DNA from: Candidatus Desantisiibacteriota bacterium
GTDB taxonomy: Bacteria; JACRDZ01
Reading direction: 5' to 3'
DNA: 14,582 nucleotides
Assembly (NCBI GenBank): GCA_016209155.1
Contig: JACQWU010000126.1
Span: 2,550 to 17,131, forward strand
The position numbers and the translations under genes were made by a program. The notes below the pieces were generated by a model that was not told the DNA's origin, did not search any database, and saw only the letters and a list, made by a program, of their open reading frames with translations. Positions within the stretch are counted from its first letter, which is position 1; the number at the start of each line of letters is the position of its first letter. Positions 1 through 13,419 of the stretch are shown one piece after another.

Positions 1-227
1 ACCCTATTTGCCTTAAGTTCCTTCTCGAGCAATAATGGAGCATTAATCCTTACATCAAGAAATGTTCCCCATGCTTTACCTTTTTTGCTCATAATCCTGT
101 TTGATTTTACATAACAATAAAGACATGAATATTCGCATCCCATATAAGGATTAATCACATATTCACCAAGATTAATACTGGTAGGATTTAATATTCTCTG
201 AATTTCAACTTCATTTATCTCAAACAT
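1..227 (-). CDS. SPL-like radical SAM protein, N-terminal fragment (runs off window start)
   Basis: Reading the minus strand from the ATG at 227 gives 75 residues without a stop before the window edge. Residues 26-39 carry NPYMGCEYSCLYCY, a CX3CX2C cluster (C31, C35, C38) that binds a 4Fe-4S cluster and S-adenosylmethionine. The NPYxGCxxxCxYCY form is typical of the SPL family (spore photoproduct lyase-like, Rv2578c-like) radical-SAM proteins, whose substrates are mostly unknown. The start is supported by a GGCAGGG Shine-Dalgarno-like stretch just upstream. That stretch lies inside a decayed copy of the 3' end of the radical-SAM gene now found at 9168-10484. The gene was therefore probably the translationally coupled downstream partner of that gene before the island separated them. 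The family call is good; the exact reaction cannot be told from this fragment. Confidence 0.8.
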   Translation of the reverse strand, partial: MFEINEVEIQRILNPTSINLGEYVINPYMGCEYSCLYCYVKSNRIMSKKGKAWGTFLDVRINAPLLLEKELKANR

Positions 228-271
228 TTTAATTCCCTGCCTTTTCAACTAAATTTTCCTAAAAAGCAATT
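225..271. repeat. Left flanking direct repeat of the defence island
   Basis: This stretch matches 9164-9209 in the same orientation, with four substitutions and three single-base indels. On the minus strand it reads as a decayed 3' end of a radical-SAM gene: NLVEKAGN-stop at 255-229, against NLIEKAGT-stop at 9194-9168. Several differences are synonymous or conservative, so this is a true coding fossil. An in-frame TAG and shifted bases upstream show decay. It overlaps the ribosome-binding site and start codon of the SPL-like gene. It may be an att-like site or a relic of insertion at the gene end. Confidence 0.7.
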
Positions 272-331
272 TTATAGCATATTCAATTTTGTAAATCAAA
301 TCTTTATCCATGTATTCAAATTATTTCTTTA

Positions 332-360
332 ATTTTATTGAAATTTCTGTTATATTTCAA
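332..360 (-). promoter_or_regulatory. Possible minus-strand promoter towards the SPL-like gene
   Basis: On the minus strand, TTGAAA (360-355) and TAAAAT (337-332) are separated by 17 bases, each one mismatch from the sigma-70 consensus. The pair could now drive the SPL-like gene at 227 from inside the island. The TTGAAAT/ATTTCAA inverted repeat (339-345 with 354-360) overlaps it and may be an operator or chance in AT-rich DNA. I see no convincing plus-strand promoter for hsdR here. The rest of 272-457 holds no gene I can support. Confidence 0.3.
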
Positions 361-457
361 ATGTCCAATTACCTATAAATATATTACCTTTAATATTTTT
401 ATGAATAAATTCCGAATATGAATAAGTGTTTTGATAATAATATGGAATTTAATAAAT

Positions 458-2728
458 ATGATCAATAAAAAAGATATGTCCGAAAGAGATATTTGTACAA
501 AATATATAACCCCTGCACTTCTGAAAGCAGGCTGGGATATACAGCTGCAAATAATGGAAGAGGTTAATCTTACAAAAGGGCGAGTTATTGTTCGCGGCAA
601 TCTTCATACTCGCGCAAAAAATAAACGCGCTGATTATATTCTTTATTACAAACCAAATATTCCAATCGCAATAATCGAAGCAAAAGACAATAATCATACA
701 GTTGGTGATGGGATGCAGCAGGCGCTAAGTTACGCGGAAATATGTGATGTTCCTTTTGTGTTTTCATCAAATGGCGATGCATTCCTATTTCACAATAAAT
801 TAGCAAAAGACGGTAAAATTGAAAAAGAAGTTACTTTAGATAAATTTCCATCTCCTCTTGAATTATGGCAACAATATTGTGAATCAAAAAGAATTGATAA
901 AACTCAAGAGGCAATTATAACTCAGGATTATTATGTTGATGGCAGCGGTAAAGCTCCAAGATATTACTACACTGCATTTCAAATTATATGGCGCTTATGG
1001 AAATCTAAAGCACGCAAGAGAATACTGTTTTTAGTTGATAGAAATATTCTGGCAGATCAGACCAAGACAAACGACTTTAAACCATTTGGTTCTGTTATGA
1101 CAAAAATCAAAAAACGTCAGGCAGATAAATCATACGAAATTTACCTCTCACTATATCAGGCAGTAACAGGTACTGAAGAAGAGCAAAACATATATAAACA
1201 ATTTTCTCCTGATTTCTTTGATCTGGTAATAATCGATGAATGCCACCGTGGAAGCGCGAAAGAGGATTCAAACTGGAGAGCTATTTTAGAATATTTCACA
1301 TCAGCTACGCAAATTGGCTTAACAGCAACCCCAAAAGAGACAAAGGAAGTATCAAATATTCATTACTTTGGAGATCCACTTTACACTTACTCTTTAAAAC
1401 AGGGAATAGAAGATGGCTTTCTTGCTCCTTATAAAGTAGTGAGAATTGATATTGATAAAGATCTGGCAGGCTGGCGTCCTGAAAAAGGGAAAAGAGATAA
1501 ATATGGCAATGAGATTGAAGATAGAATTTATAATCAGAGTGATTTAGATAAAAAACTAATACTCGAAAAAAGAACAGAACTGGTAGCGCAAAAAATATCA
1601 GAATTTTTAAAAGCAACAAACCGCTATGATAAAACCATTGTTTTCTGTGAGAATATTGATCATGCTGAAAGGATGCGTCAGGCACTTGTTAATGAAAATT
1701 TTGATTTAGCAGCTGAAAATGATAAATATGTTATGCGCATAACAGGAGATAATGAAGAAGGAAAAGCAGAGCTGGATAATTTTATTAATCCGGAATCAAT
1801 ATATCCTGTGATTGCCACAACATCAAAATTAATGTCAACAGGAGTTGATGCTCAAACATGTAAGCTGATAGTTCTTGATCAAACAATTCAATCTATGACA
1901 GAGTTTAAACAGATAATAGGACGCGGTACAAGAATAAATGAAGATTATGATAAATTCTACTTCACAATAATGGATTTTAAAAAAGCAACAGAACTTTTTG
2001 CTGATCCGGATTTTGACGGAGATCCGGTACAGATTCACAATCCAGGTCCGGATGATCCTCCAGTACCTCCTGATGATATTACAGATGATCCGCCAGAGGA
2101 TTCACCAGAACCAACGATAATTGATATATTTCCTAATGGAGGAGATGAACCACCCGGTGTAATTTATAGATTTGTAGTTGATGATGTCCCTGTTAAAGTT
2201 ATTGCTGAAAGAGTGCAATATTACGGTAAAGACGGCAGACTCATGACCGAATCGCTTAAAGACTATACAAAAAATACAATCACAAAAGAGTTTAAATCCT
2301 TAAATGATTTTTTAAAATACTGGTCTGACGCGGAAAAAAAAGATGCAATAATACATGAGCTGGAATCACATGGAATTTTTTTTGAAGCATTAAAAGAAGA
2401 AGTTGGAAAAGACTATGACCCATTTGATATGATTTGTCATATTGCATGGGGACAACCACCTCTAACTCGCAGGGAACGGGCAAACAATGTAAAAAAACGC
2501 GATAGTTTTACAAAGTACGGAGTCATAGCAAAAAAAGTTTTAGATGCATTGCTTGATAAATATGCCGACCAGGGAATAAAACATATAGAAGGTTTTAATG
2601 TTTTAACCATCCAACCTCTTTCAGCAATTGGAACACCAAAAGAAATTGTAGATGCTTTTGGAGGTAAAGACAATTACGTTACCGCAGTACACGAACTGGA
2701 GCAGGAACTATACAGAATAAGCGCTTAA
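458..2728 (+). CDS. hsdR: Type I restriction enzyme R subunit (HsdR, EcoEI-like) lacking Walker A segment
   Basis: This is the restriction and translocation subunit of a type I R-M complex. It would cleave unmethylated DNA after ATP-driven translocation. In the 756-residue product the N-terminal PD-(D/E)xK nuclease is present (D59, then EAK at 74-76). Helicase motifs DECH (260-263), GLTATP (287-292) and QIIGRGTR (485-492) follow, then an acidic, proline-rich linker and the EcoEI-type C-terminal domain. The Walker A P-loop is missing. Homologues run from PRYYQ through about 30 residues ending in GTGKT to YTAFQIIW, whereas here PRYY (167-170) joins YTAFQIIW directly (DNA near 965-970). The protein should not bind ATP normally and is probably dead for restriction. 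I prefer ATG 458 to the in-frame TTG at 431, because family members begin about here with [14 protein letters not shown]. The ribosome-binding site is weak. hsdM follows after 22 bases. Confidence 0.9.
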
Positions 2729-2750
2729 TCGAAAATCGGAGAAAAAATAA

Positions 2751-4214
2751 ATGTCAATAACTACCCTTATAAAAATGATACAGGACATAATGCGTAAAGA
2801 CGTTGGTGTTGATGGTGACGCACAGCGTATAAGTCAGATAGGATGGATGCTCTTTCTTAAAATATTTGACGACAAAGAAAAAGAATGGGAAATAACAATT
2901 CCGGATTATAAATCTCCAATCCCAAGCCGATTTCAATGGTCAAACTGGGCAAGAAATCCTGAGGGAATGACAGGTGAAGAACTTATAGAATTTATTAATA
3001 TTGAGCTTTTCCCAAAATTAAAAACTTTAGCAACAAAAGCAGGTTCTGACGAACGCGCGCGAGTTGTTGGCGCAGTGTTTGAAGATGGATACAACTACAT
3101 GAAATCAGGAACACTGCTAAGGCAAGTAGTAAATATCATACAAGAAGATCTGGATTTTAATTCATCCACAGACAGACACATGTTTAATGATATTTACGAA
3201 AAAATTCTTAAAGACTTACAATCAGCGGGTAATGCCGGAGAATACTACACACCAAGAGCAGTAACACAATTTATGGTTGAAATGATAAATCCGCGATTGG
3301 GTGAAAAAGTGCTTGATCCGGCCTGCGGAACAGGTGGATTTTTAGCGAATACAATAGAACATTTAAGAAAACAGGTTAAAAATAAAGAACACGAGAAACA
3401 GTTGCAAGACTCAATAAATGGAGTAGAGAAAAAACCCTTGCCTCATTTATTGGCAACAACAAACATGCTTCTGCATGGTATTGAAGTACCATCAAAAATA
3501 AGACATGATAATACACTCGCAAAGCCATTAATATCTTATGGCCCGGAAGACCGTGTTCATTGTATTATAACAAATCCTACATTTGGCGGAATGGAAGAAG
3601 ATGGAGTAGAATCAAATTTTCCAAAAAGCTTTCAAACTCGTGAAACAGCAGATTTATTTTTAGTGCTTATAATACATCTTTTAAAACCAAACGGCAAAGC
3701 AGGAATAGTTCTGCCTGATGGAACACTGTTTGGTGAAGGAATTAAAACCCGTATAAAAGAAAAACTTTTGGAAGAATGCAATTTGCACACAATTGTCCGT
3801 TTGCCAAACGGTGTTTTTAGCCCGTATACTGGAATAAAAACAAACCTGCTTTTTTTTACCAAAGGCGAAAAAACAAAAAATATCTGGTACTACGAACATC
3901 CATATCCGGAAGGATGCAAATCATACAATAAAACAAAACCAATGAGCATAGAAGAATTTGAGCCGGAAAAAAAATGGTGGAAAAAAAGAGCAGAAAATGA
4001 ACAAGCATGGAAAGTCTCAATAGAACAAATAAAAGCAAACAACTATAATCTGGATATAAAAAATCCAAATACTCAAGCTGAAGTTCATGCCGATCCCAAA
4101 GACATACTTAAAGACTATAACCTCCTTTCAAAAGAGATAGAACAAATTAGAAACAAACTGAAAAAAGAGTTGTCCACTGCTTGGGAGAAAGTAAATAATG
4201 AATTTTTTATTTGA
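2751..4214 (+). CDS. hsdM: Type I restriction-modification DNA methyltransferase subunit (HsdM)
   Basis: This 487-residue N6-adenine methyltransferase is the catalytic part of the M2S modification core and is of normal family length. It has an N-terminal helical HsdM domain (about 1-135), then the methyltransferase domain beginning near NAGEYYTPR (about 161-169). The S-adenosylmethionine motif DPACGTGGF is at about 189-197. The catalytic motif reads NPTF (275-278) where the family normally has NPPF; ACA replaces the usual proline codon at 3579-3581. The tail is a coiled-coil-like helical segment that should contact HsdS. A GGAGAAAA ribosome-binding site precedes the ATG. The stop codon lies 17 bases inside hsdS, so translation is probably coupled. 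The subunit assignment is firm; activity is doubtful because of the motif change. Confidence 0.93.
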   Translation: MSITTLIKMIQDIMRKDVGVDGDAQRISQIGWMLFLKIFDDKEKEWEITIPDYKSPIPSRFQWSNWARNPEGMTGEELIEFINIELFPKLKTLATKAGSDERARVVGAVFEDGYNYMKSGTLLRQVVNIIQEDLDFNSSTDRHMFNDIYEKILKDLQSAGNAGEYYTPRAVTQFMVEMINPRLGEKVLDPACGTGGFLANTIEHLRKQVKNKEHEKQLQDSINGVEKKPLPHLLATTNMLLHGIEVPSKIRHDNTLAKPLISYGPEDRVHCIITNPTFGGMEEDGVESNFPKSFQTRETADLFLVLIIHLLKPNGKAGIVLPDGTLFGEGIKTRIKEKLLEECNLHTIVRLPNGVFSPYTGIKTNLLFFTKGEKTKNIWYYEHPYPEGCKSYNKTKPMSIEEFEPEKKWWKKRAENEQAWKVSIEQIKANNYNLDIKNPNTQAEVHADPKDILKDYNLLSKEIEQIRNKLKKELSTAWEKVNNEFFI

Positions 4215-4318
4215 TAACTTTGAAGCTTTGATCGACGCTCCTAATGGAATAAAAAAAATTAAAGAGATGATACTGCAACTTGCAGTGCAGGGGAAGCTTG
4301 TAGATTTTTGGAAAAAAC

Positions 4319-4327
4319 AAAAAAAAA
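4319..4327 (+). repeat. A9 homopolymer at the hsdS frame break
   Basis: Nine consecutive As directly follow A6-C. The upstream frame reads CAA AAA AAA ATA and the downstream frame reads AAA AAT AAC GAG, so adding one A (or a -1 slip on A-AAA-AAA) restores HsdS. Homopolymers of this length are known to change length during replication and to cause RNA polymerase slippage. Confidence 0.7.
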
Positions 4328-4874
4328 TAACGAGCAATTATATAAAGAGGGGAAACTTAAAAAACAGAAAGAATTTGAAGTAGTTAAAAATGAAGAAATC
4401 CCTTATGAAATCCCACAAGGCTGGATTTGGGATAGAATTGGTAACACTGGAATAATATTTAATGGTGATAGTTTAAACTCAAAACAGAAAGAATGTTACA
4501 GCAATTGTAAAAATGGATTACCCTATATTTCAACAAAACATGTTGGATACGGTTCTAAAATTACTAACTATAAAGTGGAAATGAAGATACCATATGATGA
4601 ACCAAAATTTAGAATCGCACATAGTAATTCTGTTTTAATTTGTTCCGAAGGTGGTAGTGCTGGTAAAAAAATAGGTCTCATTGATAGAGATATTTGTTTC
4701 GGGAATAAGCTTTATGCAAATGAAACATTCTTGGGAATAACACCTAATTATATATACTATTTCTATCAAACTCCTTTTTTCTTTTATGAATTTAAAAAAA
4801 GGATGACTGGTATCATTGGTGGTATTTCAATAAATAGTTTCATAAATATTCCTATACCTATTCCTCCTACATTA

Positions 4875-4924
4875 GAACAAAAACGTATTGTTGCCAAAGT
4901 TGACGAGCTTATGGCTCTTTGTGA
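4875..4924 (+). repeat. hsdS central conserved repeat, copy 1
   Basis: This 50-bp stretch is a direct repeat of 5724-5773 with only two differences seen (cgt/cgc and gag/gaa). It encodes EQKRIVAKVDELMALC at the end of the first recognition half of HsdS. Such repeats bracket the recognition domains and allow recombination that swaps or moves them. Confidence 0.8.
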
Positions 4925-5723
4925 TGAGCTGGAAAAAAAGAAGGAAAAACAAAATAAAAAACGCATATCATTAAATAATGCATCATTAGATAAGCTGCTT
5001 AAATCAACTAAACAATCAGATTTTAATTATAATTTTAAAATCATTACTGACAATTTCGATATAATTTATAACACCCCTGAAAACGTAAAAAACTTAAAAC
5101 AGGCAATTCTTCAACTTGCAGTACAAGGCAAACTCGTCCCTCAAGACCCAAACGACGAACCTGCAAGTGTACTTTTGAAAAAAATAAAGAATGAGAAAGA
5201 AAAATTAATTAAAGAAGGAAAAATAAAAAAACAAGAACCTCTACCGGAAATAACAGAACAAGAAAAACCTTTTGAATTGCCAAAGGGGTGGGAGTGCTGC
5301 AGACTTGGGAATGTTACTAATTATGCATTAACCCAAAAAATAGAACCATCAAGCCTTAAATCTGAAATATGGGTTTTAGAACTTGAAGATATAGAAAAAG
5401 AAACTTCCAGAATTATTAAAAAAATGAGATTTGCAGAAAGACAATCTAAAAGTACTAAAAATGTATTTAATACTGGTGATGTCATATACGGTAAGTTACG
5501 TCCATATTTAGACAAGGTTATTATTGCAGACGAACCAGGAGTGTGTACAACGGAAATGATACCAGTTAATGGATATGGTTTTATATCACCACAATATCTT
5601 AGGTGGTTCTTAAAATCTCCATATTTCATAGAATATGCAAACTCTTCAACACACGGAATGAAAATGCCAAGATTGGGAACCGATAGAGCTTTAAATTCAA
5701 TTTGTACTTTACCTCCTCTCAAC

Positions 5724-5773
5724 GAACAAAAACGCATTGTTGCCAAAGTTGACGAACTTATGGCTCTTTGTGA
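5724..5773 (+). repeat. hsdS distal conserved repeat, copy 2
   Basis: This is the second copy of the 50-bp direct repeat at 4875-4924, about 850 bp downstream, and encodes the same EQKRIVAKVDELMALC helix. Homologous recombination between the copies would delete one recognition half. Confidence 0.8.
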
Positions 5774-5944
5774 CAATCTAGAAAATAAATTAACATCCAT
5801 CAGTCACAAAAGTGAGAAAATGATAAACGCAATAGCAAATAAGATAGGGTATAAATGAATATCGAAGCATAATTGGATAGTTTTAAGAAATTTATGGGAA
5901 TTATTAATAATAATTAAGTTGTTTCTCATAGAAGGTAATAAAAA

Positions 5945-6979
5945 ATGGAACTAAAAGATTATAAAAGTGTTGTTAATTATTTAAATAGTAAAAAACGAGA
6001 AAAGCATCTTTTGTTGGGTAATGGTTTTAGTATGTCTTATGATAGGACTATCTTTTCTTACAATGCATTGAGTGACTTTCTAAACCAGTCAGAGGATAAG
6101 TTACTTAAAAAACTATTTAGTATAATCAATACGCGTAATTTTGAGTTGATAATGAAACAGCTGGATGTTTTTTATGAATTAGCAAAAGAGTTTTCAAAAG
6201 ATAAGAATTTCGCAAAAAATGTAATAATCGCAAGAGATTCCTTAAAAACAAAACTTATTGATGCGATAACCACATTACATCCAGAGCATGTTTTTAAAAT
6301 TCCTGAAGAAAAGAGTCTCAAATGTGCTGATTTTCTTAATGAATATCTTGGCTCTGGAGGACATGTATTTTCGACTAATTATGATTTGTTATTGTATTGG
6401 GTGCTTATGAAAAACAAAGAACGGTTAACCAACATTGAAGATGGTTTTGGTCGTGACCTTATTGAAAAAGATGCATTTGAGTCGGATTGTCAACCTGAGT
6501 TTGGTGAGTTAGAGTGGGGAAATAACAGGAATGTTCAGTGTGTTCATTATGTACACGGGGCATTACATTTATTTGATTCAGGAGTAGCTATTAGGAAAGA
6601 AACATATGATGGAGAATTTTTACTAGAGAATATTAAAAAACGTATAGAAAAGAAAGAATACCCAATCTTTGTTACTGCTGGTGATGGAAAGCAAAAGCTT
6701 GACCATATACTGCATAATCAATATTTAGACTATTGCTATAAGCAATTGTCTTCAATACAGGGATCCTTAATAACATTTGGTTTCAACTTTGGAGCTTATG
6801 ATAAGCACATTATTGATGCAATTAATAAGGCAGCTAAACAAGATAAATCAAAACGACTTTGGAGTATATATATTGGAGTTTATTCAGATGAGGACAAAAG
6901 GCATATTGAGAGTATTAGCTCAAAGTTTAAATGTAAAGTTAATCTCTTTGATTCTAAAACCGTTTCTATTTGGGAATAA
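5945..6979 (+). CDS. DUF4917 family SIR2-like protein, putative NAD-linked defence effector
   Basis: This is an intact 344-residue protein with the pattern I recognise as DUF4917, a family with SIR2-like sequence features. LLGNGFSMSYD at 23-33 resembles the nucleotide-binding start of SIR2-like proteins. STNYD at 143-147 matches the TTNYD-type motif, and HYVHG (H204) corresponds to the catalytic histidine region. GFNFGAYDKHI at 279-289 matches the C-terminal G-x-S-x-x-D-x-H-I type motif. SIR2-like proteins in defence islands often deplete NAD+; this function is inferred and not shown for this family. There is no signal peptide or membrane segment. A GAAGGT ribosome-binding site precedes the ATG, 86 bases after hsdS. 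It is the only island gene without a visible lesion. It could also be a metabolic or regulatory NAD-binding protein. Confidence 0.8.
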   Translation: MELKDYKSVVNYLNSKKREKHLLLGNGFSMSYDRTIFSYNALSDFLNQSEDKLLKKLFSIINTRNFELIMKQLDVFYELAKEFSKDKNFAKNVIIARDSLKTKLIDAITTLHPEHVFKIPEEKSLKCADFLNEYLGSGGHVFSTNYDLLLYWVLMKNKERLTNIEDGFGRDLIEKDAFESDCQPEFGELEWGNNRNVQCVHYVHGALHLFDSGVAIRKETYDGEFLLENIKKRIEKKEYPIFVTAGDGKQKLDHILHNQYLDYCYKQLSSIQGSLITFGFNFGAYDKHIIDAINKAAKQDKSKRLWSIYIGVYSDEDKRHIESISSKFKCKVNLFDSKTVSIWE

Positions 6980-7060
6980 TAAATTTTTCTGTTTATTTGG
7001 AGTTTATTAAAAAAAGATTATAAATATTCTTAAAAAGGAAAATCATATAAATGGGAATAA

Positions 7061-7364
7061 TGGGGTTTGCCATTGACATGGGACAAATTAAGACAAAAAA
7101 GTACATTATGTACTAATTTTAATTTAATCAAAGACTGGGTGTATCCCGATAATATCATCAAAGCCGATATTTAGCGGAATTGTTAGATATTGTGAAAGAT
7201 AATAAATATAATTTTATAAATAATAGTTACAATAAAAAATTAAAGAGATATTAAAATTTTATAATATAAGCTATGAAAATATTAAATATGGTACAAATAA
7301 AAAAACCACATGCAACATACAAAAATCAATTAAAGAAATTCTAGCGACGTTGTTTTTTAAGTGA
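7061..7364 (+). pseudogene. Relic of an unidentified gene, in three frames
   Basis: Three open segments follow one another, each continuing the last after a one-base shift. The first (7061-7171) begins WGLPLTWDKLRQKS and ends VYPDNIIKADI. The second (7174-7254) begins AELLDIVKDNKYNF and ends NKKLKRY. The third (7251-7364) begins LKFYNISYENIKYG and ends IKEILATLFFK. Both shifts are in the same direction, as expected for single-base losses, and a TAA sits just before the first piece. I do not recognise the family. Fragments of this length arise by chance in AT-rich DNA, so the call is tentative. Apart from this, the 440 bases between the DUF4917 gene and darT hold no gene I can support. Confidence 0.35.
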
Positions 7365-7421
7365 TTTATTATTTTGGTTTTTAATATTTCTATTTTTTCT
7401 TTAATAAGCTAAAGGTATTGT

Positions 7422-8015
7422 ATGAATAGAAATGATATACCTGAATTACATTTTATTACATATATTGAAAATATCCCATCTATATTGCGGTATGGAATTT
7501 TATCTCATAATAAAATAAAAACGCAAAAATTGAACTATTGTGATATTTCAGAGTAAGGAGTTCAAGATCGAAGGGCAGTTAAAAGAATTCCCAATATAAA
7601 TAAGAGCTTACATGATTATGCTAACCTGTATTTTGATGCACATAATCCGATGTTAAGTGCAAGAAGGTCAAAAAATGATATTATTTGTGTTCTTAGAATA
7701 AAAAATACAATTTTAGAAATTGAAGGTGTAATTGTAACGGATAAAAATGCTGCAAGGGATTGCTGGTTTAAAACAGTTAATGAAGGATTGCCATTATTGA
7801 GTACAGATGAAATTTTTTCAACTTATTGGACTAAAAATGATGATTATTTAGAGAAAGAGAGGTTAAAAGGAATAAAGTGTGCGGAAGTTTTAGTTCCATA
7901 TTGCGTTAAACCGGATTATATTTTCGGGGCTTATGTTGCTAATGAAATAGCTTTAAATAAATTATGTAAAATTTCAAATATAAATGTTATAATTAAAAAT
8001 AATCTATTTTTTTAA
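7422..8015 (+). pseudogene. darT: DarT-like DNA ADP-ribosyltransferase toxin (DUF4433), interrupted by in-frame TAA
   Basis: DarT transfers ADP-ribose from NAD+ onto thymidine in single-stranded DNA and blocks replication. The frame from ATG 7422 spans 198 codons and is interrupted only by TAA at codon 45 (7554-7556). The first part reads ELHFITYIENIPSILRYGIL, a family-typical start. After the stop come VQDRR (47-51), LHDYANLYFDAHNPML, TDKNAARDCWF and AEVLVP, whose glutamate (residue 155) corresponds to the catalytic Glu. No frameshift is present, so a single base change would restore a full-length toxin. AAAGG lies upstream of the start. Re-initiation at ATG 7650 would give a 121-residue C-terminal piece without the NAD-binding N-terminus. 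darG follows after 13 bases, the normal toxin-antitoxin order. Family call is firm; the toxin is almost certainly off unless the stop is read through. Confidence 0.88.
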
Positions 8016-8028
8016 AGAGGTATTAATT

Positions 8029-9153
8029 ATGAATATGAAAATTTTAATCGGCGATATTTTTCAATCTGAAGCGCAGACTATTATAAATACTGTAAATTGT
8101 GTTGGGATTATGGGAAAAGGGATTGCCGCTGAATTTAAAAAACGATATCCCCTGATGTTTGAAGATTATGTTGCTCGTTGTGAGCGAAAAGAGGTTCTTC
8201 CGGGGATACCGTATTTATTTAAAGAATCTATGTTTGATCCTCAAATAATAAACTTTCCTACAAAATCACATTGGCGTGCTGCTTCTAATATTGATGATAT
8301 TGATAAAGGATTAAAAATACTTTCAGGAAAATATAAAGAATGGTGTGTTGAATCTATTGCAATACCCCCGCTTGGTTGTGGAAATGGCCAACTGCTCTGG
8401 GAGTCTGTTGGGCCTCTTATTTAGAAATATGTATCAGAGTGGGATATCCCTGTTAAATTATATGCTCCCTATGGTACGCCTGCTTCACAATTAACAATTG
8501 ATTTTTTATCCAGTGAATCCAGCAGTTTGATAAAAGTAGCATGGTCTGGTATGAAAATACTGCAAAAAATAAATCCTGCATGGATTGTATTAACTGAAAT
8601 TATATATCGGATTGAACAGCAAAAATATCATATGCCAATAGGCCGAACTATATTTCAAAAAATTGCTTATGTTGCGACTGTACTTGGTTTGCCAACAGGA
8701 TTGAATCATATAAGAGCATCTTATGGTCCATATTGCAGTGAGCTGGATGAAGTTAAAAAAAGATTAGCAAATGCAGGATTAATTCAAGAACAGAGATTAG
8801 GAAGTATGTTTAAAGTACTTCCAGGATTGGAATATAAAAACACCAGAGAAAAATATCAGGAAGAGATAAAAAAATGGGATTGTTTAATTAATAAAACAAC
8901 TGATTTATTCCTGCGTTTAGATACAAATAAAGCTGAGATTGTAGCTACAGTTTTATTTGTTGAAAAAGAAATAAATAAAAAAAATGATAAAACAGAACAA
9001 GATGTTTTAAATGAAGTGATGAAATGGAAACAGAAAAGAAGACCCCCTGTGAATGAAAAAGAAGTTGCAGAAACAATACGTAATCTTGGTATTTTGAAAT
9101 GGTTTAATTTAAAACCATCGCATGAATTACTAGTTAATGATTATGAATTTTAA
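8029..9153 (+). pseudogene. darG: DarG-like macrodomain antitoxin, interrupted by in-frame TAG
   Basis: DarG removes ADP-ribose from DNA through its macrodomain and also binds DarT through its C-terminal part. The frame from ATG 8029 runs 375 codons with one internal stop, TAG at codon 132 (8422-8424). Before it lies the macrodomain: INTVNCVGIMGKGIAAEFKK (20-38), FPTKSHWR with the catalytic-type lysine K79, and IPPLGCGNGQL (112-122). After it, in the same frame, come KYVSEWDIPVKLYAPYGTP and the DarT-binding-type C-terminal region ending DYEF. The stop falls where related proteins usually have tyrosine in an LYxYL-like segment. As it stands, a nearly complete macrodomain of 131 residues would be made, and a C-terminal piece could start at about 8527. 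AGAGG precedes the start. Confidence 0.87.
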
Positions 9154-9163
9154 TTTTATCAAG

Positions 9164-9209
9164 CATTTTAAGTCCCCGCTTTTTCAATTAAATTTCCTAA
9201 AAAAGCATT
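9164..9209. repeat. Right flanking direct repeat of the defence island
   Basis: This is the partner of 225-271. It forms the last codons and stop of the radical-SAM gene at 9168-10484 (minus strand), followed by one base and an ATG. Beyond that ATG the minus strand reads MLDKIKIHNH-stop, perhaps a trace of the start of a gene like the SPL-like one (MFEINEVEI). The repeat marks the right boundary of the island, next to the end of darG at 9153. Confidence 0.7.
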
Positions 9210-10484
9210 AGTATATTTAAAACTATGTTTTTTGATTTGCTCAACAAAAATTCCCATTCTTTTCATAGATTCGGGGTTGGTTTTATAATCAAAAGAAACA
9301 TCCGTATCTGTGCCGTCATAATACGTAAAAGGATTTATCTGCTCGATCTTGGGGATAATATTTTTTCTTTGGATAACAAAATTAAGACTATCCCAAAAAT
9401 CCTCTTCGGTTTCTCCGGGGTAGCCGACAATGATGCTTATTCCAAAAAATAAATCCGCGTCAATAAGTTTCTTAAAAAAATTCTCCGCGTCAAAAGCGGT
9501 AAATCCTTTATTCATGCGTTTAAGTGTATTTTCTGAACCTGATTCAAGCCCGATAAATAAATTATAGCAGCCGCTCTTTTTCATTTTTTTAAAAAGATTT
9601 ATATCCATATCGTTTCTTACGGCAATCTGAGCTTCCCAGTTTATGCTTCCGAAATTATTTATAATTTCATCACACAACTCCTCAAGCTTATTTACATCAG
9701 CGTTTAGCATTGAATCAAAAAATATAAAATATTTTATATCTTTGTTCTCTCTATGATATTTAATCTCATTAATAACGCTTACAACAGATCTGCTTCTAAA
9801 ACCTTTAAAAAGCAATTTTTCCGAGCAAAAACCGCATTTTCTTATACACCCTCTTGTGAAAAGTAATGGAATTGCACTGGTTTTTTGATAATTATTTAAA
9901 TTAGTTTCTGTAAATTCCGGGTATGGAATATTGTCAAGATTTTCCAATTGTGAAAATACTCTCACTGTCCCCTTCTCAATTCTTTCTTCAACATAATCAT
10001 AAACACTCTTTTCACCTTCACCGACTACAATAAAATCTGCAATCTCTTTTATCTCATTTGAAATTCTTTTTCCGGATTTAAAATACTGTCTTGCTATTTC
10101 CGGTCCTCCTAAAATAATTTTGATACTATTTTTGCGGAATTTTAACATTTTTATTACTTCAATAGTAGTTTTAAAATTACTTTTAAAACAGGAAAAACCA
10201 ACAATATCATATTGAAGCATTTTATTTATACTTTCATAAAATTTATCAGAATGCTCATTTTTTATTAATGACAGAATATTTTCCTCCAGAAATGTGTTAC
10301 AGCTTATGAACCAGGATTTTTTTATATCTTCTCCCGACAGATTAAAAAAAGTATTATTCAAATCTAAAATATCCGCATTAATAGATTTATCCTTGAGATA
10401 CACTTGCAAATAAGAAATCCCGAGCGTCGGCATTTTTGGCCAGAATACAGGAAGAATAGTAAGAAGTATTTTTTTATTAGACAT
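9168..10484 (-). CDS. B12-binding-type radical SAM protein
   Basis: This 438-residue enzyme has an N-terminal cobalamin-binding-like Rossmann region (about 1-160: LGISYLQVYL, IVGFSCF, GGPEI at 126-130, VVGEGE). A radical-SAM domain follows, with TRGCIRKCGFC (C213, C217, C220) and GLESGS at 312-317. It belongs to the broad class of B12-dependent-like radical-SAM enzymes, which perform methylations and C-C bond chemistry. The classical DXHXXG cobalamin motif is not visible, so cobalamin may not be bound. The substrate cannot be told. The start has no strong Shine-Dalgarno sequence and I see only weak promoter candidates in 10485-10540. The gene runs divergently from the PAS sensor and convergently with darG (14 bases between ends). 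Its last codons lie in the right island repeat, so the extreme C-terminus may be supplied or altered by the insertion. Confidence 0.85.
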   Translation of the reverse strand: MSNKKILLTILPVFWPKMPTLGISYLQVYLKDKSINADILDLNNTFFNLSGEDIKKSWFISCNTFLEENILSLIKNEHSDKFYESINKMLQYDIVGFSCFKSNFKTTIEVIKMLKFRKNSIKIILGGPEIARQYFKSGKRISNEIKEIADFIVVGEGEKSVYDYVEERIEKGTVRVFSQLENLDNIPYPEFTETNLNNYQKTSAIPLLFTRGCIRKCGFCSEKLLFKGFRSRSVVSVINEIKYHRENKDIKYFIFFDSMLNADVNKLEELCDEIINNFGSINWEAQIAVRNDMDINLFKKMKKSGCYNLFIGLESGSENTLKRMNKGFTAFDAENFFKKLIDADLFFGISIIVGYPGETEEDFWDSLNFVIQRKNIIPKIEQINPFTYYDGTDTDVSFDYKTNPESMKRMGIFVEQIKKHSFKYTNAFLGNLIEKAGT

Positions 10485-10541
10485 TTAATTTTTATATCAT
10501 ATTCAATTTAATAAAGCAAATAAGCAAATACAATTTTCGGG

Positions 10542-12045: not shown

Positions 12046-13419
12046 TTAACCTACCACATCAAATTTTCTGATTTTATATGCAACTCCCAAATTTTGTGCC
12101 AATTTACGGCACGCATCCAAATCAAGATCCGGTAGTTCCACAAAAGTTATTACTACTTTAGGAATAACTTTTTTACACTCCAGAATAAATTTCATAACCT
12201 CATCAAATGTGCCTTCACCGAATTCCGGACAGCATACCTGCATATATTTATTTTTATCAAGAGCATTAAGGCTGATGCATATTTCATCAATAATACCGGA
12301 AAATTTCGGGACAATATTTTCTATGCTCATTAAATATCCATGCACGTTTGTGTCAATTCTCACATGTTTTACTCCCATATTTTTCAGCGCAGCGGCTATT
12401 TTAAGCACAACCTCAATACGTAATAACGGTTCTCCATAACCGCAAAATACAACTTCACGATATTTTGAAATTACCGGTTTTATTTCCTTAAGGAGGTCAT
12501 CAACAGTCGGTTCAATATTAAACTTAAGCAGGTGTCCCTGTAAAAAATCCTGTTTATATCTTAAACAAAAAAAACAGCTGTTACTGCATTGATTGGTAAT
12601 ATTAAGATATAATGAATCGCGTATAGGATAAACAATCACAGGTTTTTGTTGTATTGGCAGATTAAATAATTTTATCGCATTTAAAGCAGTAATACGTCCA
12701 ATATCATCAGATGAAAGCATTTTAATTTCCGCTAACTTTTGAGCTGTATATTTAACATATGCCGGCATATTTCTTTTGCCTCTCTCAGGCTGAGGTGAAA
12801 GATAAGGACAATCAGTTTCTATCAGAATTCGTTCCATGGGGATATAACTTATTAATTTATTTATATTTTCATTTTTTTTAAATGTTATCTGTCCCGCAAA
12901 AGATATATGGAAATTCATATCCATAAATTTTTTAGCTATTTCAATATCACCCGAAAAACAATGAGCAACACCCCCGATCTCTTCAGCACTTTCCTGTTCC
13001 ATAATTTTCAAAGTGTCGTCAAAAGCTTCACGGGAATGAATTATTAAAGGCTTTTTTACTTCTCTTGCCAATCTGATAAATCTTGCAAAAACTTCTCTCT
13101 GTTTATCAACAGGTGAAAGATTTCTATAATAATCAAGCCCTACTTCACCGACAGCTATTGCTTTTTTATGTAACAAAAGCTCCCTTATGGCAATGTAATC
13201 TTCTTCCTTCATTTTATTGGCATCATGCGGATGAAAACCGCAGCTGGCATAAATAAAATCATATTTTTCAGACAATTTGACAGATTCGATACTGCTTTGC
13301 GTATTAAGTCCTATATTTAACATTAGCTTTACATTTTCGCTCAATGCCGTATTTATAACAGTATCTCTGTCCGGATCAAATATACTATCATCTAAATGCA
13401 CATGAGAATCAAAATACAT
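12046..13419 (-). CDS. TatD family hydrolase fused to a radical SAM domain
   Basis: This 457-residue protein has two parts. Residues 1-255 form a TatD-type metal-dependent hydrolase with its usual metal ligands: DSHVH (H6, H8), GEVGLDYY (E92), H128 in IIHSRE, H153 in AHCFSG and D203 in ETDCPYL. TatD proteins are 3'-5' DNA exonucleases or deoxyribonucleases. Residues 265-457 form a compact radical-SAM domain with TNQCSNSCFFC (C278, C282, C285), CGYGEPLL and an IDTNVHG motif, matching the TatD-associated radical-SAM family. Its substrate is unknown to me. A GGAGG site lies before ATG 13419, and the metG stop is only 17 bases upstream, so the two are probably co-transcribed. The classic neighbour order metG-tatD is kept. 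All key residues are present. Confidence 0.9.
   Translation of the reverse strand: MYFDSHVHLDDSIFDPDRDTVINTALSENVKLMLNIGLNTQSSIESVKLSEKYDFIYASCGFHPHDANKMKEEDYIAIRELLLHKKAIAVGEVGLDYYRNLSPVDKQREVFARFIRLAREVKKPLIIHSREAFDDTLKIMEQESAEEIGGVAHCFSGDIEIAKKFMDMNFHISFAGQITFKKNENINKLISYIPMERILIETDCPYLSPQPERGKRNMPAYVKYTAQKLAEIKMLSSDDIGRITALNAIKLFNLPIQQKPVIVYPIRDSLYLNITNQCSNSCFFCLRYKQDFLQGHLLKFNIEPTVDDLLKEIKPVISKYREVVFCGYGEPLLRIEVVLKIAAALKNMGVKHVRIDTNVHGYLMSIENIVPKFSGIIDEICISLNALDKNKYMQVCCPEFGEGTFDEVMKFILECKKVIPKVVITFVELPDLDLDACRKLAQNLGVAYKIRKFDVVG

Follow-up and report, generated by a model that had tools for sequence, protein, structure and literature searches.

Insertions of restriction-modification (R-M) genes accompanied by long target duplications have been described (PMC3031569, PMC1643837, PMC3874152), among them one in Helicobacter pylori for which these papers cite Nobusato et al. 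(2000). Target duplications published for R-M genes measure around 100 bp, and type I systems are described as less mobile (PMC3874152). Another kind of insertion is known from the dusA elements (e.g., IMEVchUSA3) and from SXT in prfC, which split a protein-coding gene and supply it with a new promoter (PMC8409611). Here, we analyzed a window of 14,582 nucleotides in which a block of defence genes lies between a radical-SAM gene, RSAM, and an SPL-like radical-SAM gene (Table 1). The window belongs to a fragmented draft genome (352 contigs, 79% complete, 3.08 Mb), and its first nucleotide borders a scaffold gap of 107 N that interrupts the SPL-like gene. We consider it probable, if well short of certain, that foreign defence genes were inserted at this site together with a target duplication of ~1.36 kb, and that one copy of the duplicated DNA then collapsed to a leader with a promoter and a ribosome-binding site.

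Repeat copies, borders, and cargo of the island

An earlier note on this DNA, made from the sequence alone, had described an imperfect direct repeat of the RSAM 3' end on both sides of the defence genes. We recovered both copies, at 225-271 and at 9164-9209, and they share one orientation. Aligned without gaps, they are identical at 38 of 47 positions, compared with 33/47 for the best of 300 dinucleotide shuffles; by BLAST, they share 87% identity over 44 nt, and the 47-bp sequence has two sites only in the 3.08-Mb genome. Overall, the copies differ at 13-19% of positions (81-88% identity). The right copy is, as the note had it, the live end of the intact RSAM gene (NLIEKAGT-stop). Translated in the same frame, the left copy gives AF*ENLVEKAGN-stop and is thus the fossil that the note had taken it for; its stop codon (TAA) is found one base ahead of the SPL-like ATG.

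Table 1. Features of the window, with positions counted from its first nucleotide
Feature	Position	Strand	Basis
SPL-like radical-SAM gene, 5' part; continues across the 107-N scaffold gap to C271:1941	1-227	-	tblastn, 73% to residues 1-71 of the G003 orthologue; remainder past the gap
Left repeat, fossil of the RSAM 3' end (last ~45 nt)	228-268	-	BLAST, shuffles, frame reading; holds AGGGA
Copied RSAM upstream region (TTGATT-17-TATAAA), joined directly to the RSAM 3' end	270-301	-	28/32 to 10490-10521; promoter reading presumptive
Inserted defence cargo	302-9155	.	Absent between the orthologues in six relatives; ~8.85-8.9 kb
HsdR, type I restriction subunit of the EcoAI family; probable start codon ATG at 461	431-2728	+	NCBIfam NF046051, E=0, 1119 bits; Pfam HSDR_N, ResIII, EcoEI_R_C
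HsdM, type I N6-adenine methyltransferase	2751-4214	+	Pfam N6_Mtase 6e-79; PADLOC MTase_I 9e-230
HsdS specificity subunit, main ORF 4308-5858	4250-5858	+	PADLOC Specificity_I 1.5e-149
DUF4917/SIR2-like protein, PADLOC candidate defence family PDC-S21	5945-6979	+	Pfam DUF4917 2e-43; PDC-S21 8e-109
DarT (ssDNA thymidine ADP-ribosyltransferase), in-frame stop near 7555	7422-8015	+	Pfam DarT 7.9e-11
DarG (macro-domain antitoxin), interrupted near 8423, between the two domains, by an in-frame stop	8029-9153	+	PADLOC DarG 2.5e-57 and 7.8e-21
Right repeat, RSAM 3' end plus ATG and at most 3 codons resembling the SPL-like gene start	9164-9209	-	
RSAM, intact B12-binding radical-SAM gene, live copy	9168-10484	-	Pfam Radical_SAM 1.1e-19 and B12-binding; 65/66% to G001/G003
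RSAM upstream region, TTGCTT-17-TATAAA, 6 nt before ATG, original of 270-301	10490-10521	-	Sequence comparison

Homology to other DarG genes at the DNA level extends to 9152-9155 and no farther, so that the right border falls at 9154-9167, no more than 14 nt away from the stop codon of RSAM; the left border lies between 302 and the start of HsdR. Because DarG has its natural end at 9153, any extension of the repeat at the right border is limited to the first codons of the SPL-like gene, and a repeat reaching far into that gene was rejected. We judged an assembly artefact to be unlikely, since long identical runs are absent from the repeat and each border coincides with the natural end of a gene, although the window does start at the scaffold gap.

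Pfam and PADLOC profile matches agree with the earlier description of the block between the repeats as defence cargo, which includes a complete type I R-M set (HsdR, HsdM, and HsdS). A single in-frame stop lies in each of DarT and DarG, so that toxin and antitoxin are both interrupted beside the intact frames of HsdR, HsdM, and DUF4917, and the start of HsdS (MILQLAVQGKLV, 4250-4310) is out of frame with the main HsdS ORF. In G001, a genome of the same candidate phylum, DarG is intact and DarT is uninterrupted over the stretch that is broken in the window. Judged from these frames, the island is decaying. Since the repeat copies have diverged and three cargo genes (DarT, DarG, and HsdS) are damaged, the event is old, as had been suggested from the repeat. 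Over its C-terminal part, DarG shares 82% identity with the homologue in G001 and 76% with that in G118, which belongs to another phylum. The cargo has moved horizontally, because DarG shares this 82% with G001 compared with 65% for RSAM, and because DarTG of G001 is found at another location, adjoining other restriction-type genes. Two side observations concern the decay of such genes. The interval between DUF4917 and DarT (6980-7420; ~440 bp) has a low GC content and no long ORF and may represent the remains of a gene. The window genome (G000) also has a second, more distant homologue of HsdR (C308:3015-4807; L054, L056, and L057), which is fragmented with several stops and, from its reading frames, looks like another decaying R-M remnant.

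The RSAM and SPL-like genes in related genomes

The earlier note had called for an empty site, in which the RSAM homologue directly precedes the SPL-like homologue. We found this arrangement in 6/6 loci of relatives that have a complete RSAM-SPL pair (54-66% protein identity), i.e., two genomes of the same candidate phylum and four Omnitrophota, the latter obtained from a scan of GTDB genomes. The intergenic distance in these six relatives is -14 to +13 nt. In both G001 and G003, which are the genomes of the phylum holding RSAM, the SPL-like gene comes directly after RSAM, and among the compared genomes the pair is split in the window genome alone; its nearest relatives share 65% protein identity (RSAM). 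Tandem RSAM paralogues in relatives, the case that the note had named as speaking against an insertion, were looked for and not found. Each related locus has one RSAM gene, and we rejected a tandem pair as the ancestral state in the relatives searched.

The divergence between the repeat copies is what would be expected from separate lineages, and it could mean that the right RSAM is foreign and arrived with the cargo, the left relic then being the native gene, deleted after its replacement. We regard this as very improbable. In protein trees, the live RSAM and the SPL-like gene are both placed with the same phylum (60-65% identity), so that neither is an obvious import, and GC and GC3 of RSAM resemble those of the flanking genes.

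Some further observations on these genes were made. The RSAM-SPL pair is conserved across the candidate phylum and Omnitrophota, often with overlapping frames (L034, L035, and L039-L042). The match of the SPL-like protein to "radical SAM mobile pair protein B" (TIGR04470) reaches 105 of 410 bits and marks it as a sub-threshold relative. Elsewhere in the window, a single ORF at 12046-13419 encodes a TatD-type DNase fused to a radical-SAM domain.

RSAM upstream sequence at the left junction

Next to the left repeat, positions 270-301 match the RSAM upstream region at 10490-10521 in 28 of 32 positions, a similarity that the earlier note had missed. The best chance match among 573,218 positions of fetched DNA was 23/32, and a degenerate search of the whole genome that allowed three mismatches returned only these two sites, leading us to reject a repetitive promoter motif as the source of 270-301. 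Together with the shuffles and the uniqueness of the repeat by BLAST, these values rule out chance similarity of the repeat copies. The left copy thus has the order RSAM upstream region, last ~45 nt of RSAM, SPL-like gene, and both order and orientation are those of RSAM. Because both ends of RSAM are fused at the left junction, we read the left copy as a second RSAM gene that has lost ~1.3 kb, such that its presumed promoter adjoins its last ~45 nt. The remnant is 77 bp; the full-length duplication would have been ~1.36 kb.

Several features of the remnant are consistent with a function in expression of the SPL-like gene. The AGGGA in the left repeat is likely the ribosome-binding site of this gene, and G003 has AGGGGA at the equivalent place, inside RSAM. 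Read by eye, TTGATT-17-TATAAA at 270-301 is presumably a promoter-like stretch; a promoter scan did not call this site, as the scan requires the -10 element to end in T. Based on these elements, the leader at 225-301 would drive the SPL-like gene. Separately, we noted a 14-nt exact match (AAAATTGCTTTTTA) between 9806-9819, inside RSAM, and 256-269, at the left junction, which could be a trace of a stepwise (two-step) deletion.

The earlier note had likened the repeat to attL/attR formed by integration at a gene end. Of this reading, the old insertion exactly between RSAM and the SPL-like gene is supported, and site-specific integration is not: the left repeat continues into RSAM upstream DNA, which an att site does not predict, and plain attL/attR are therefore not supported. 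An elaborated version would have an element that has since lost its integrase integrate at the RSAM/SPL-like junction, bringing a replacement gene end, a promoter, and a ribosome-binding site, with the repeats as attL and attR. We consider this unlikely, even though the insertion lies exactly at a gene junction, the direct repeat is imperfect, and islands that give a split gene a new promoter are a precedent (PMC8409611). The element's promoter would have to resemble that of RSAM at 28/32 by coincidence. No recombinase is present among the identified genes of the 17-kb contig, in line with the note's remark that none was in sight. There is no identical crossover core between the copies, the longest in-register identical run being 8 nt, although age could have erased such a core. 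The queried cargo also has no relatives in viral contigs or plasmids: viral contigs gave no matches for the C-terminal part of DarG, DUF4917, or RSAM, and plasmids gave none for the C-terminal part of DarG, and for these parts we rejected a viral or plasmid origin. As for the note's proposal to look for the 47-bp sequence next to other islands, the sequence occurs nowhere else in its own genome and, taken as an exact degenerate 32-nt pattern, is found in no viral contig. Transposon ends were rejected as well, as no long inverted repeat links the two borders.

A collapsed second RSAM gene would also result from two independent events, i.e., a tandem duplication of RSAM that collapsed to the leader, followed by a module-by-module build-up of defence genes in the non-essential space. 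The final anatomy would be identical, and the cargo modules occur separately elsewhere, as in G001 with its DarTG beside other restriction-type genes. A tandem RSAM pair is, however, found in no relative, and the cargo meets the duplicated DNA at tight junctions on both sides, which points to a single event. We therefore hold two events to be distinctly improbable.

Proposed origin and comparison with known systems

For the insertion with target duplication, we propose the following course. RSAM and the SPL-like gene form an old operon-like pair, abutting or overlapping in the relatives. Foreign defence genes would have been inserted at their junction with duplication of a ~1.36-kb target that spanned RSAM with its upstream region and the first SPL-like codons, giving the order RSAM copy, cargo, RSAM copy, and SPL-like gene. 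The recombination route was likely driven by homology or microhomology, either with a long target duplication as for R-M genes or by a Campbell-type event, in which a circle carrying the RSAM region would integrate and give the same product. Later, the RSAM copy on the side of the SPL-like gene would have lost ~1.3 kb, the surviving part being what the SPL-like gene needs, namely the promoter region of RSAM and its terminal ~45 nt with the likely ribosome-binding site. A target duplication might, we tentatively suggest, make such an insertion tolerable, in that the downstream gene of the split operon keeps a promoter and a ribosome-binding site and the spare gene is later trimmed by selection. 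If so, operons could acquire defence genes with neither a recombinase nor polar damage.

The event is of an ordinary kind, and the example is clear. It would be a readable record, from a candidate phylum about which little is known, of how a recombinase-free defence island came to lie inside a conserved gene pair. More generally, what looks like an att repeat at a protein-coding gene can consist of the two gene ends left over when a duplicate collapsed, and the two cases may be told apart by comparing the outer side of the repeat with the upstream region of the gene.

Known defence islands that combine type I R-M with DarTG have the same gene families adjacent to each other; here, the island is decaying, with DarT and DarG interrupted and the start of HsdS frameshifted. 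With insertions of R-M genes that duplicate their target, the locus shares R-M genes without a recombinase, a direct duplication of the target on both sides, and relatives with a single copy and no insert. It differs in that the island is composite (type I R-M, DUF4917/SIR2-like, and DarTG), that the empty-site relatives are distant only, and that the target would have been ~1.36 kb rather than ~100 bp, of which 77 bp survive in the collapsed copy. The dusA and prfC elements resemble this island in being inserted at the start of a gene that is then expressed from across the junction, as we infer here for the SPL-like gene. In contrast to these elements, the island has no integrase or RDF and no identical att core, and its leader is derived from the neighbouring host gene.
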